This document shows, one piece after another, positions 3,408 through 14,713 of a stretch of 23,812 bases of DNA. The notes below the pieces were generated by a model that ran no database searches, was not told where the DNA came from, and was given only the letters and a program-made list of their open reading frames with translations. Where the stretch lies: IMG/VR virus record IMGVR_UViG_3300034156_000012, positions 1 through 23,812 of that record. One strand, given 5' to 3'. The position numbers and the translations under genes are program-made. The DNA comes from a virus. Positions within the stretch are counted from its first letter, which is position 1, and each line of letters begins with the position of its first letter.

Positions 3408-3920
3408 CTAGTTCGCAATGCCCTGATACGCCGCTTCGCAGTTCAATCCCCGTGCTCGACTTTCATCAGCCTGACTCGCCAAATCTCCCGCTCTTTCATC
3501 AGCGCGCTTGAACAGCTCGGCAAACACCAGGACGGCGCGGCTTGCTGCCTGGCTTGCTGCGGCAGTGCAGGAATGGCTGCTGGTCGTACTTGCGGCACGG
3601 CTGGCGACTCTATCGACTTCGTTGCGCAGGCCGTTAGCAGTAGCGCGAGCGCTGACAGCATCAGCAGTCGCTGAATCAATGGCTTTCTGACCATCTTGGA
3701 TCACCTTGTTGATGGATTGCTGTCGGGCTTGCTCTTTGGTGCGCTCGGCAACTTCGGCATCGGCCAGCGCTTGGCTGTCGTCGGCGTCACGGTCAGACCA
3801 GCGCTCCTTCCACTGGGAATCCTTCACCGACAGCCCGTGATGATAGGCGACGAGCAGCGCGCCAGCCGCCAGAAGGACTGCAGCTATGTAAGGAAGGATT
3901 CGCAGCAGGAGCGGATTCAT
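3408..3920 (-). CDS. Rz-like inner-membrane spanin (DUF2514 type)
   Basis: The 170-residue protein has one N-terminal membrane segment (residues about 9-27, PYIAAVLLAAGALLVAY) and then a long periplasmic helical region rich in Ala, Gln, Glu and Arg, with no cleavable signal. This is the i-spanin layout: the inner-membrane anchor pairs with lipoprotein Rz1 to fuse the two membranes at the last step of lysis. The family resembles DUF2514 Rz proteins of Pseudomonas phages. Its ATG overlaps the endolysin stop by four bases, and Rz1 is embedded in another frame. It is the last gene before the terminator. Confidence 0.85.
   Translation of the reverse strand: MNPLLLRILPYIAAVLLAAGALLVAYHHGLSVKDSQWKERWSDRDADDSQALADAEVAERTKEQARQQSINKVIQDGQKAIDSATADAVSARATANGLRNEVDRVASRAASTTSSHSCTAAASQAASRAVLVFAELFKRADERAGDLASQADESRARGLNCEAAYQGIAN
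3443..3694 (-). CDS. Rz1-like outer-membrane spanin lipoprotein, embedded in Rz
   Basis: The frame lies wholly inside Rz in a different register and encodes 83 residues. It begins MVRKPLIQRLLMLSALALLL followed by TAC, a classic lipoprotein signal with lipobox LTAC and Cys23 as the lipidated residue. The mature part is rich in Pro, Gln and Ala (PAVPQVRPAAIPALPQQ), as in o-spanins. Its position and features together make it the Rz1 partner of the enclosing Rz. The N-terminal region is convincing; the C-terminal portion beyond the Pro-rich stretch is longer than in short Rz1 proteins. Confidence 0.8.
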   Translation of the reverse strand: MVRKPLIQRLLMLSALALLLTACATKSIESPAVPQVRPAAIPALPQQARQQAAPSWCLPSCSSALMKEREIWRVRLMKVEHGD

Positions 3921-10747: not shown

Positions 10748-11454
10748 TGCGTCACTGCTCCCGGCGTTCCGTTGGTGAACTTGTCGAACATTTCCAAAGC
10801 CTTATCGCCGACATCTTGGGCGACCTGCCTCAAGCCGCCATCGGCCGTGATCGTATCAACAATCCGCGTCAGGATGGATTCGCTGGCCGGGGCTGGCTGC
10901 TGTTCGCCTGCGTCTACGGGCGGAGCGTCCTCGGGATTTGCCGTCTCCTTGGTTTCATACGTCACTTCGCCTTCGCGGATCTCTTCCAGGTAGATGTTGG
11001 CCGCGATCATGCGGGCGCCATCCTGCGGCATCCTGGCGTAGTCGTAGCCGGTGATCGCCGCATTGAGGTGCACGTATTCCGGCGTGATGATATGGAACAG
11101 CAGCGTGGACTTAGACAGCAGCTCAAGCTGGGCGATGAACAGGCCGCGCAAGGTCGCATCACCGCCGCCGCGAATCATCGTCACGGTCGCCTGATAGGGG
11201 TTCTGGACCTTGTTGTAGCTGGTGAAGGTGCCTTTCTCGACCGGCGCCTGAGACACCTGGCTGTTGTTCTGGTACTTCACCGAATACACGGTGTCCGCCA
11301 GCATGATCGGAATGCCGAACTGGTTGAAGATCCCCCATTGGTTGCCGAAGATCTTGCGGATCAGGGTCGCTCCGCCAAAGCTGATTAGTGCGCTAGTGCC
11401 CGATGAGACGAGCCCTTTAAAATCGGGAATGCTAGGGAGCCCAGGAATCGTCAT
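10744..11454 (-). CDS. Dit-like baseplate / distal tail protein
   Basis: The 236-residue protein has a central beta-domain with TVYSVKYQNNSQVSQAPVEK, then TFTSYNKVQNPYQATVTMIR and LLFHIITPEYVHLNAAITGY. This resembles the Dit-like N-terminal domain found after the tape measure in several myophages. A helical N-terminus precedes it. An acidic, Pro/Ala-rich linker (about residues 172-195) leads to a helical C-terminus. It would form a ring joining tail tube and hub. Start and stop overlap neighbours by ATGA. Confidence 0.72.
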   Translation of the reverse strand: MTIPGLPSIPDFKGLVSSGTSALISFGGATLIRKIFGNQWGIFNQFGIPIMLADTVYSVKYQNNSQVSQAPVEKGTFTSYNKVQNPYQATVTMIRGGGDATLRGLFIAQLELLSKSTLLFHIITPEYVHLNAAITGYDYARMPQDGARMIAANIYLEEIREGEVTYETKETANPEDAPPVDAGEQQPAPASESILTRIVDTITADGGLRQVAQDVGDKALEMFDKFTNGTPGAVTQ

Positions 11455-13631
11455 AGCGTGCCACCTCCCAATTGGTTAATAAGCTGACTACTGCGCGATA
11501 CGCCCGCCGCCACACCAGCCGCTGTCGCTTCAGGAAGGGACGTGGCCGAGGTCTGTACGGTGACAGAGCCGACCGATACCTGAACGCCGCCACCCGATGA
11601 CGAGCTTGCGGAAGAGGGCGATACGCCGCCCTGAGTCATTCGCTGAGCCGTGATAGCCGACATTTTACCCAGAACGTCAGACCCATAGGCTTCTGTTTTC
11701 GAACCCCAGATGTTTCGGTTGGGTCCGGCGTGGTGATGCTTGAATGCATCCTCCATCGTGTCGCCCGCGTCCAGGCGCTGACGCAACTGCATGGCGGCCG
11801 CATCAATCGCCTGGGCCGGGTCGTAAGGGTTGATGCCCAAGCTTTTCGACGTGCTGTCAAGGTATTGCATCATGCCCTTGGCTGTGCCCCACTTGGTTTC
11901 CGGGCCGACTGCGTTCGCATTGAAGCGTGATTCTTGATGCGCCAGGGCGATCAGCGACTCTACCGGTACACCGTGCTTTTTCGAAGCGTTCTCGAAAGCC
12001 GGCATCAGCTCGGCGGGCGGCATCAGGCCGGATTGCCCGTAGGACGATGTGCCCGCAGATCCGCCACTAGAGCCAACCCATGAAGCCAATTGGTTTTTCA
12101 GCCATGCGGCGCCGGACTTCACTCCGCCCGAGATAGTGCCTTCCGAGCCCGCCTCATGACCCAGCATGGTGTCCAGCGCGCCAGCAACATGGCCGGTTGT
12201 TGCGCCTACCACATCGATATAGGTGCCCGCGACTTGCGCCGGGATATTCTTCGCCAGGCTCAGCGCGTCACCCCATCGGCCCTCCATTACGGCGCCGAGA
12301 AGTTCGACCATTGTTTTCAGTGCCGGGACGGAATCGTAAATGTCCTTGCCGAGCTGCTTGAAGGCATTGGCCAGTCCGCGAACGGATAGGCCATTCTCGT
12401 CAATGATGCCTTTTTCATGCAGCCACTTTGAAAAGGCTTGCTGCGCATCGGCCAGCGAGTCATACCCGGTCAGCAGGCGGGCGAAGCCCTTGGCTAGGCT
12501 GTCCACGGATACGTTGGTGCCCTTGATGTACTTGTCGAACGCCGTCCAGTCGAACAGCGATTTCCCGCCCTCGGCCCATGTCTTGTAGTCGTCGTAGAGC
12601 AGGGCGAAGCCAGCGGCCAGGATAGCCACCACGGCCGCCGTCGCGAGAATAGGGGAAATCAGCGCCAGCATAGCAACCCCGGCCCTTACCAGGGCAGGCA
12701 GAAGCAGCACAGTAATGGCGATGGTGATGCCTTCGAATAAGTTGCGCACGGTGCGCTCATTGCGGGCCAGGTAATCCATCCACCCCGAAACCACTTTAGT
12801 CATCTTGAGCAGTACGGGAATCAGCGCGTTGGCCAGCATGGTTTTCATGCCTTCCCACTGCGACGACAGGAACGCCTGGGCCTTGCTCAGTTCGCGACTG
12901 GCCTTAATGTCTTGCTCGCTGGAGACATATGACTTCTTCTGCATGTCCAGCATCTCTTGCATGGCATCCCGGCCCTGGATCAGGGCGTTAGCCATGCCGT
13001 CATCGATCCCCATTGCCGAGGCAATCGCATAGGCCTGCTGCGGGTCCATCTTCGACAGCGAGTCGGACATATCAAGCAACACGTCGTTCATCTTGCGGAC
13101 GTTGCCCGAGGCATCGACCACGCCGACGCCGAGCGCGCTGAAGAAGGGGATCAGAGAGTCATTGCCCATTAGCACCATTTCCTGAATCCCTTGATTCAGG
13201 CTGCGCATGGTGTTTTCGGCTGAGGCCCCGGCGCCGCCAAGACCGGCGACGGCGGTGTCCATCCCTTTGATGTCTCGAGCGGTCGCGCCAAGACGCTTGG
13301 ACATAAAGCCTAATTGGTCGTTGGCATTGGAAATTGCGGTCGTGAACTTGACGATGGCGTTAGAGCCGGCGAGCGCGCCAAGGAATGCCACGACGCGCCC
13401 GGTGACGGCTATCAGGGCTTGCTGCTGCTTGCCCACGGCCTTGGTGGATTCGCCCACTTTCCCGGCCATCTTATCAATGCCTTTGCCGGCATCAGCGGAA
13501 GCTTCCTCAGTGCCCTTGAGCGCAGTTCGCAGGCGCTTTTCAATGCCCTCAGCTTGGCCCGCTTCAGATCGAAACTTGTCCAGTTCGATCTCGATGCGCA
13601 TTACCAGTTCATCGACCGTTACTGAGCTCAT
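11451..13631 (-). CDS. Tape measure protein with lytic transglycosylase (SLT) domain
   Basis: The 726-residue protein begins with a long helical region rich in Ala, Lys, Glu and Gly. A hydrophobic stretch at about 300-345 (ITVLLLPALVRAGVAMLALI and onward) is typical of tape measures that insert in the host membrane. The C-terminal part holds a lysozyme-like SLT domain at about 545-640: LIALAHQESRFNANAVGPE with Glu567 as probable catalytic acid, then GTAKGMMQYLDSTSKSLG and HHHAGPNRN. The tail end is Ser/Gly-rich. It sets tail length and may cut peptidoglycan during DNA entry. AAGGA lies eight bases before the ATG. Confidence 0.92.
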   Translation of the reverse strand: MSSVTVDELVMRIEIELDKFRSEAGQAEGIEKRLRTALKGTEEASADAGKGIDKMAGKVGESTKAVGKQQQALIAVTGRVVAFLGALAGSNAIVKFTTAISNANDQLGFMSKRLGATARDIKGMDTAVAGLGGAGASAENTMRSLNQGIQEMVLMGNDSLIPFFSALGVGVVDASGNVRKMNDVLLDMSDSLSKMDPQQAYAIASAMGIDDGMANALIQGRDAMQEMLDMQKKSYVSSEQDIKASRELSKAQAFLSSQWEGMKTMLANALIPVLLKMTKVVSGWMDYLARNERTVRNLFEGITIAITVLLLPALVRAGVAMLALISPILATAAVVAILAAGFALLYDDYKTWAEGGKSLFDWTAFDKYIKGTNVSVDSLAKGFARLLTGYDSLADAQQAFSKWLHEKGIIDENGLSVRGLANAFKQLGKDIYDSVPALKTMVELLGAVMEGRWGDALSLAKNIPAQVAGTYIDVVGATTGHVAGALDTMLGHEAGSEGTISGGVKSGAAWLKNQLASWVGSSGGSAGTSSYGQSGLMPPAELMPAFENASKKHGVPVESLIALAHQESRFNANAVGPETKWGTAKGMMQYLDSTSKSLGINPYDPAQAIDAAAMQLRQRLDAGDTMEDAFKHHHAGPNRNIWGSKTEAYGSDVLGKMSAITAQRMTQGGVSPSSASSSSGGGVQVSVGSVTVQTSATSLPEATAAGVAAGVSRSSQLINQLGGGTL

Positions 13632-14267
13632 CCTGCAATTCCTTAATCAGTGCCTTGTTGTGCGCGGACACCTGATGAAATTCAATCATCGTGATGGCGT
13701 CTTCTAGCGTTAGGTGCGAGTCAAGATCAGCGTAAGTTGCCAGGCCGTTGTCGAGGACATAGAAGGCCTGGCCGCTCAGGTTTGCGCACCTTGCAAATGC
13801 CTCTGTGTTCAGAGGCATCTGCAACCCATCAGTTTCGATTACTGGGTAACGCCGGCCGTTAAAAAATCGAGGTTGACCTTGATCGATTCGATTCGAAGTT
13901 TCCAGAGCGTGGAAATACTGGTCACGTCGGTCTCGAGCATCAAAGGCCGATCCGATCCACTGGGCAGGCGCAGGCGAACGTCTTGCAGCACTTCGTCCAG
14001 CAGCTCTTGGGCGGTGACATCATCGACGCCGCCCAATGCCTTCAGCGCCACGCTGACCACGCCGGCCATGTCCAGCAAGCCTCGAAACACCAGCTTTCCG
14101 CTTTCGTCGGTCGTGGTCAGGCCGGAGATATCAACCCCGCCCTTGCACAGTGACAGCGCCACGCGGTTGGCCCAGCGATCACCGCGAAGAAGAGGCATCT
14201 TCTTCACGATGAACGTTTTGCCCGCGTCCGTGCCGTCTTCGATGGTCACGTCCTTGGTCGAAATCAC
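13609..14267 (-). CDS. Tail assembly chaperone, long form made by -1 frameshift (gpGT-like)
   Basis: The -1 frame is open from upstream of the shorter gene's stop down to 13609. Slippage at T TTT TTA (13866-13860) would join residue 136 of the short form to 83 further residues starting NGRRYPVIETDG, giving about 219 residues. The extension ends LTLEDAITMIEFHQVSAHNK and a charged helix. Frameshifted G/GT chaperones just before the tape measure are known from lambda and most long-tailed phages, where they bind tape measure and recruit tube protein. The extension has no good independent start: the candidates are TTG at 13824 and ATG at 13818, the latter inside a nine-pair hairpin. Confidence 0.8.
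13797..13818 (-). other. Nine-pair hairpin covering the in-frame ATG of the chaperone extension
   Basis: ATGCCTCTG and CAGAGGCAT are perfect complements around a four-base loop. The ATG at 13818-13816, the first in-frame ATG of the extension, lies fully inside the stem, which would hinder independent initiation. Confidence 0.6.
13839..14267 (-). CDS. Tail assembly chaperone, short form (gpG-like)
   Basis: The 142-residue product has DAGKTFIVKKMPLLRGDRWA near the N-terminus and a helical centre (LLDMAGVVSVALKALGG), a pattern of phage tail assembly chaperones encoded between tube and tape measure. The start is GTG at 14267 in a GTGA overlap with the tube gene, with GAGG about ten bases upstream. 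It ends LDFLTAGVTQ; the codons GAT TTT TTA just before the end form the slippery site for the longer product. It acts in the cytoplasm and is normally not part of the mature virion. Confidence 0.82.
   Translation of the reverse strand: MISTKDVTIEDGTDAGKTFIVKKMPLLRGDRWANRVALSLCKGGVDISGLTTTDESGKLVFRGLLDMAGVVSVALKALGGVDDVTAQELLDEVLQDVRLRLPSGSDRPLMLETDVTSISTLWKLRIESIKVNLDFLTAGVTQ
13860..13866 (-). promoter_or_regulatory. -1 programmed frameshift heptamer T TTT TTA
   Basis: On the - strand the zero-frame codons read GAT TTT TTA, so the last T of GAT plus the next two codons form the canonical X XXY YYZ slippery heptamer. The -1 frame continues for 83 codons. Twelve bases downstream, ACCCAGT (13847-13841) can pair with ACTGATGGGT (13833-13824), leaving a small bulge, a possible stimulatory stem. 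Confidence 0.8.
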
Positions 14268-14713
14268 GAAATAGATTCCTCGCTGTTGATGACCATGTTG
14301 AACACGTACTGCGTGCCGTTGATGAGCTTCTGCGCGGAAGGACCGCCACCCTGGCTAACCATGAAGCCGCTGGCCTGGATGCGACGGCCAATCGACGGGA
14401 TGGTGATGTCCAGTGTGCAGAGGCTGGTTTCTTGGTTGGCGTTGCACCAGGCACGGAACTCTTCCATCTGCAAACGGCTTGCGCTGTTCGCCTCGAGGAA
14501 TACCGTAACCGGCACTTCGTGAGCGACCCAGCCACCAGACTGCTTGCCGTCCACGCCCATGCGGGTCTCGCCCACGGTCGCATCACCGAAGCCGAACGCG
14601 TTATCTACCTGGAAGCCTTGAAGCTGAACGGCCTGATCGTAGTAGCCCGCAGCGGTGAACATAACGACGCTGTTGGCCGCTGTGATCGTGCGGGGATTCT
14701 GTCCCATTGGCAT
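14264..14713 (-). CDS. Tail tube protein
   Basis: The 149-residue protein lies directly after the sheath gene and before the chaperone, the conserved place of the tube protein. It is beta-rich with short loops: NSVVMFTAAGYYDQAVQLQG, VGETRMGVDGKQSGGW and VAHEVPVTVFLEANSAS suit the tube-protein sandwich, and VFNMVINSEESIS ends it. It would form the inner tube through which DNA passes. Assignment rests on order and fold pattern; no catalytic motif is expected. Its stop overlaps the chaperone start by GTGA. Confidence 0.82.
   Translation of the reverse strand: MPMGQNPRTITAANSVVMFTAAGYYDQAVQLQGFQVDNAFGFGDATVGETRMGVDGKQSGGWVAHEVPVTVFLEANSASRLQMEEFRAWCNANQETSLCTLDITIPSIGRRIQASGFMVSQGGGPSAQKLINGTQYVFNMVINSEESIS

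Follow-up and report, generated by a model that had tools for sequence, protein, structure and literature searches.

Organization of the tail assembly chaperone locus

The window analysed here is a 23.8-kb viral record whose head and tail genes lie on the minus strand. Profile searches assigned this minus-strand set to a portal protein, a sheath protein (DUF3383), an E217 gp32-like protein, a chaperone, a tape measure protein, a Dit-like protein, an E217 gp41-like hub and baseplate J, and the phage is a contractile-tail phage of the AP22/Popoffvirus/E217-like kind. The genes run in the order sheath, E217 gp32-like, G, T and tape measure, which places G between the tail tube position and the tape measure gene. 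G (13839–14267; minus strand, as are all features described here) starts with GTG and encodes 142 amino acids, the short form of a tail assembly chaperone (TAC-N) as judged from PHROG 1932, its position and an AlphaFold2 model. Right before it lies the gene for a probable tail tube protein (14264–14713; PHROG 1964, virion structural protein; Pfam E217_Gp32, PF22764). T (13609–13860), assigned from PHROG 3976 and AlphaFold2 as the C-terminal part of a predicted long form (TAC-NC), is an extension of 83 codons plus a stop in the −1 frame (NGRRYPV...ELSNGR). It is followed at once by the tape measure gene (11451–13631; PHROG 2276/12506), whose product carries a C-terminal SLT lytic transglycosylase domain (Pfam PF01464). 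A DNA-level search among named phages found no relative at the chaperone locus and, for the whole window, short scattered patches only; a search of genome contigs found no relative.

Elsewhere in the window, a GH19-type endolysin (PF00182, 3917–4468) and a GDSL/SGNH hydrolase (PF13472, 4521–5240) adjoin the lysis genes, and the hydrolase may target host surface polysaccharide. A small ORF with a lipobox-like LLTAC motif (3443–3694) lies entirely inside a DUF2514 gene (3408–3920) in another frame, an arrangement resembling Rz1 embedded in Rz.

The assignment of G came from a profile match of residues 3–139 to PHROG 1932 ‘tail assembly chaperone’ (E = 7e-26), a family matched by 40 of 40 aligned relatives of G. 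Pfam PF21822 (Phage_TAC_15) was matched by 12 of these 40 at E values up to 0.01 (best 1.8e-5) and not by G of the window. The AlphaFold2 model of G (pLDDT 76) yielded no convincing match in a Foldseek search of the PDB. T matched PHROG 3976, as did all 42 aligned relatives; this viral family is listed as ‘unknown function’. The model of T (pLDDT 84) is a small helical domain, and Foldseek found no match to it in the PDB. Searching BFVD with the same model returned weak but coherent matches, namely small phage orphans and Bcep781 gp47; among the resembling orphans was D4N451 of PAK_P1 (64 aa; E = 0.4, probability 0.97). If T is indeed joined to G as proposed below, the function of PHROG 3976 would be that of a C-terminal chaperone domain added by frameshifting.

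A slippery heptamer precedes the end of G

The C-terminus of G reads ...NLDFLTAGVTQ*, and the original prediction had placed an X XXY YYZ heptamer in its codons GAT TTT TTA (13868–13860). The heptamer, T TTT TTA, is present at 13866–13860 in the right phase, its X being the third base of GAT (13868–13866), and the zero frame ends six codons beyond it (TAGVTQ*). In the −1 frame no stop interrupts the 53 codons preceding the slip site or the 83 following it, which run to 13612; the stop is at 13611–13609. The claim that it stays open for 83 codons up to the tape measure start thus held, and the frame runs on into the tape measure gene, overlapping its start (13631) by 23 nt. The predicted fusion product would comprise 136 G residues plus 83 residues of T, 219 aa in all, with the sequence ...NLDFL-NGRRYPVIETDGLQMPL...ELSNGR.

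The heptamer in G is beyond chance, because TTTTTTA occurs in frame once in the 6671 codons of the window's genes and it is kept in every close relative. Among the 15 in-frame X XXY YYZ heptamers in these 6671 codons, one is TTTTTTA; TTA accounts for 10 of 560 Leu codons (1.8%) and TTT for 60 of 236 Phe codons (25%).

The −1 frame and a T TTT core are conserved across the family

Relatives were collected by IMG/VR scans started from G and from T, together with named phages, giving 148 distinct loci. T lies in the −1 frame of G in 68 of 68 T-anchored loci with a recognisable upstream G, and the conserved T of G-anchored loci is likewise in −1; wherever both parts were found among the 148 loci, the extension was always in −1 and never in +1. 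A zero-frame NNT TTT is present in the overlap at 147 of 148 loci, compared with 33 per 14054 codon pairs upstream of the overlap. A full slippery heptamer occurs in 129 of 148 loci, as TTTTTTA, G, C or T, as GGGTTTT or as AAATTTT, and about 13% of loci lack a strict heptamer and have T TTT only (for example GAT TTT TCC or GAG GCT TTT CTC). The motif thus varies across loci while T TTT is common to its versions, and the shared core is therefore T TTT, which closes an [H]x[D/E/G]F motif. This core would be well suited to a slipping Phe tRNA. Of the tetramers measured in E. coli, U_UU.U and U_UU.C belong to the more shift-prone (PMC4066793).

The original prediction had tied its case to two features of relatives that keep the extension, retention of the heptamer and a −1 frame free of stops. 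The heptamer, or a related motif with the T TTT core, is conserved, and relatives retaining the extension show no −1 stop, with the exception of L040. This locus has an intact slip site, and its T frame diverges abruptly part way and ends early, unlike those of its near-identical relatives (L037–L042); recombination or an assembly artefact is possible. Separately, L117 is the sole locus of the 148 without NNT TTT in the overlap and has an in-frame AAATTTC there instead. In several lineages (L013, L016, L018, L037, L043–L047 and L060), the −1 frame is closed by a stop immediately upstream of the heptamer, and the change of frame must therefore take place at or after the heptamer.

Synonymous variation was examined in 12 close relatives whose chaperones are 73–95% identical. 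Mean synonymous diversity over G codons 2–132 is 0.375, and codons 120–128, just upstream of the slip site, vary freely. Diversity falls to zero at GAT, TTT and TTA and stays there in every later G codon except one. The lone variable codon past the site is GCC/GCA, read as CGG/AGG (Arg) in −1, a change silent in both frames. Two-frame coding that starts at the slip site would be expected to produce such a drop, and after the site purifying selection acts in both frames in the close relatives.

These comparisons bear on two other ways in which the frames might come to be joined. A change of frame at a homopolymer is a classic sign of sequencing error, and the two ORFs could represent one gene broken by such an error or by a decaying frameshift mutation. 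The −1 arrangement recurs in 148 distinct loci, complete reference phages included, and both frames are under purifying selection, so that we consider this explanation to have a negligible chance of being correct. Alternatively, the long form could arise by transcriptional rather than ribosomal slippage, given that six T follow one another at the site and that RNA polymerase can slip on homopolymers. For transcriptional slippage to be efficient, however, six bases make a short run, and in many relatives the run is down to four or five T (GAT TTT TCC, GAG GCT TTT CTC) or the site is G GGT TTT, forms that tRNA re-pairing fits better; we hold this route to be very improbable. Both explanations were rejected, and ribosomal slippage is the reading followed below.

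Predicted RNA structures downstream of the site

RNAfold predicted a stable structure in the 60 nt after the window's site (−23.4 kcal/mol, z −4.4), made up of stem 1 and a second hairpin together. Stem 1 (13824–13847) pairs ACCCA (13847–13843) with TGGGT (13828–13824) and begins 12 nt past the heptamer, in agreement with the stem claimed 12 bases downstream; three extra outer pairs would move its start to 7 nt, yet compete with the hairpin. The hairpin (13791–13824), TTGCAGATGCCTCTG-aaca-CAGAGGCATTTGCAA, covers the only in-frame ATG (13818–13816) as originally proposed, although folding gives it 13–15 bp and not nine pairs. In the window's clade, the pairs of stem and hairpin are nearly invariant, so that covariation is uninformative, and no compensatory change was seen. 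Across 11–12 relatives, synonymous positions of the arms are for the most part fixed.

Folding 29 mixed relatives to a consensus yielded almost no structure, because the two subclades have their stems in different register. The stem test was consequently limited to 16 sequences sharing one register. In this other clade, a well-supported 8-bp stem lies 6 nt past the heptamer and is 98.4% paired, compared with 21–52% for slid controls, and one pair is changed on both sides, from G-C to A-U, in seven sequences, probably through one event. For the window's clade, roles of stem 1 and the hairpin in stimulating frameshifting are plausible.

T lacks a start codon conserved in the family

The program-listed ORF of 71 aa begins at TTG 13824, and an in-frame ATG lies at 13818. 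T might accordingly be an independent small protein made from one or the other codon, perhaps with its translation coupled to the end of G. An in-frame ATG is indeed present in the window's clade, annotators list T as a separate gene, and in Obolenskvirus L018 an in-frame ATG has a fair Shine-Dalgarno sequence (TAAGGA at 4 nt), making it a plausible separate start of T in that phage. On the other hand, no strong Shine-Dalgarno sequence was found for the window's ATG, which is buried in the 13–15 bp hairpin, and no T start codon is conserved across the family: most lineages, with some exceptions, are without a convincing one, and L050, L016 and L048 have none among the first 25 post-slip codons. 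Constraint on the −1 frame extends from the ATG back as far as the heptamer, and the junction residues FF and R of T are invariant or nearly so among relatives. Natural G-T fusions also exist, as described below. Weighing these points, we regard independent translation of T as improbable and favour its synthesis as an extension of G.

Bcep781-like phages encode a G-T fusion and a separate G

Profile alignment showed that Bcep781 gp47, read from an upstream ATG, is a 186-aa in-frame G-T fusion. Residues 1–119 match the G profile (E = 3.6e-10) and residues 107–183 the T profile (E = 4.1e-10), so that G and T exist here as one chain without a frameshift, in a domain order colinear with the predicted frameshift product. 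The annotated GTG start of gp47, and likewise that of Bcep1 gp48, seems to be 16 codons too late.

After the fusion gene comes gp46, a G encoded on its own (PHROG 1932), at the end of which we found no slip motif and no −1 extension. The order fusion then G holds in five of five phages inspected (L105:32215–33182, which is Bcep781, minus strand, and L191, L192, L193 and L194), with one extra ORF between the two in KPhi1, and the records matching gp47 are 22 Burkholderia and Xanthomonas phages. A recent duplication as the origin of the pair is unsupported, because gp46 and gp47 share no BLASTP similarity.

Our results thus suggest, with reasonable though not high confidence, that one chaperone family produces its two isoforms in two ways: by −1 frameshifting at a T TTT site in most lineages, and from adjacent G-T fusion and G genes in Naesvirus and related Xanthomonas phages. 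If so, frameshifting would be dispensable once the short form comes from a second gene, and the two-gene pair would be a natural experiment on the purpose of the frameshift, namely ratio control. Lineages with separate G-T and G genes would make it possible to test directly whether the frameshift only sets the ratio of the two forms.

Annotation of the extension in reference phages

The extension is annotated as a separate hypothetical protein in AP22 (gp43), vB_AsaM-56 (gp68), Highwayman (CDS_0065) and others, and is absent from the annotation of Orisa01. A joined G-T CDS was found in none of the reference annotations inspected. The expectation that the exact site would usually be missed and the extension left as an orphan was borne out in these records, but the same kind of event has been published for Pakpunavirus/Vandenendeviridae (PMC12846349). 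Recognition of the fusion would correct the annotation of a large set of contractile-tail phages, among them phages of Acinetobacter and Aeromonas. In one of the former, phiAC-1 (L189, 1831–2793), the tape-measure region is annotated as two separate lysozyme-like ORFs; a split gene or an error in the sequence could account for this.

A model for two chaperone isoforms and its relation to known systems

Based on the sequence comparisons, we consider it highly probable that G yields two chaperone isoforms through a −1 slip on T TTT TTA. That the frameshift is real and has a function is very likely, because the −1 frame is constant, T TTT is conserved, synonymous variation collapses at the site, the −1 frame is closed just before it in many lineages and natural fusions occur; slippage at T TTT TTA in G, and its efficiency, we infer. 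Most ribosomes would stop at 13839 and release the 142-aa short form, whereas a minority, perhaps helped by the downstream RNA structure, would slip back one base and make the 219-aa G-T. By analogy with phage lambda, the tape measure protein would be coated by the short form, and tail tube subunits would be recruited by the T domain of the long form, the rarer of the two. Neither form would be expected in the finished virion.

The −1 frameshift producing gpG and gpGT of lambda (Levin 1993; Xu 2004) is established and conserved in long-tailed phages (PMC5009743), and a predicted HK97-type chaperone frameshift has been measured at 6–7% (PMC3711429). The locus described here resembles lambda in arrangement and frame: a predicted two-isoform chaperone lies just upstream of the tape measure gene, its short form would come from normal translation and its long form from ribosomes slipping into −1 close to the 3′ end of G, and T is in the −1 frame. 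It differs in belonging to a contractile-tail phage, in its slip site, T TTT TTA, and in its protein families (PHROG 1932 and 3976). For TAC-N/TAC-NC of Vandenendeviridae/Andersonviridae (phage Adele), a −1 frameshift at GTTTTT was argued in December 2025 (PMC12846349). That group likewise has a contractile tail, a T-rich −1 site near the end of TAC and a C-terminal part earlier annotated as hypothetical, whereas the phage families and the exact motif are different. The Vibrio phages phi 2 and X29 have annotated gpG and joined gpGT (PMC5690320); they too are myoviruses with G and GT upstream of the tape measure gene, but their G is like Mu gp41 (PF10109), of another chaperone family. Bcep781 gp47 and gp46, and the KPhi1-type Xanthomonas pairs, belong as G-T and G to the same families and lie next to the tape measure gene, and differ in being two genes, the in-frame fusion and then the stand-alone G. 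Our literature search, outside which most subscription journals lay, found no paper on a frameshift in this family or on the two-gene arrangement of Bcep781. Taken together, the kind of system is already known, and what is added here is the precise site, its family-wide demonstration and a lineage that apparently makes the two forms from two genes.
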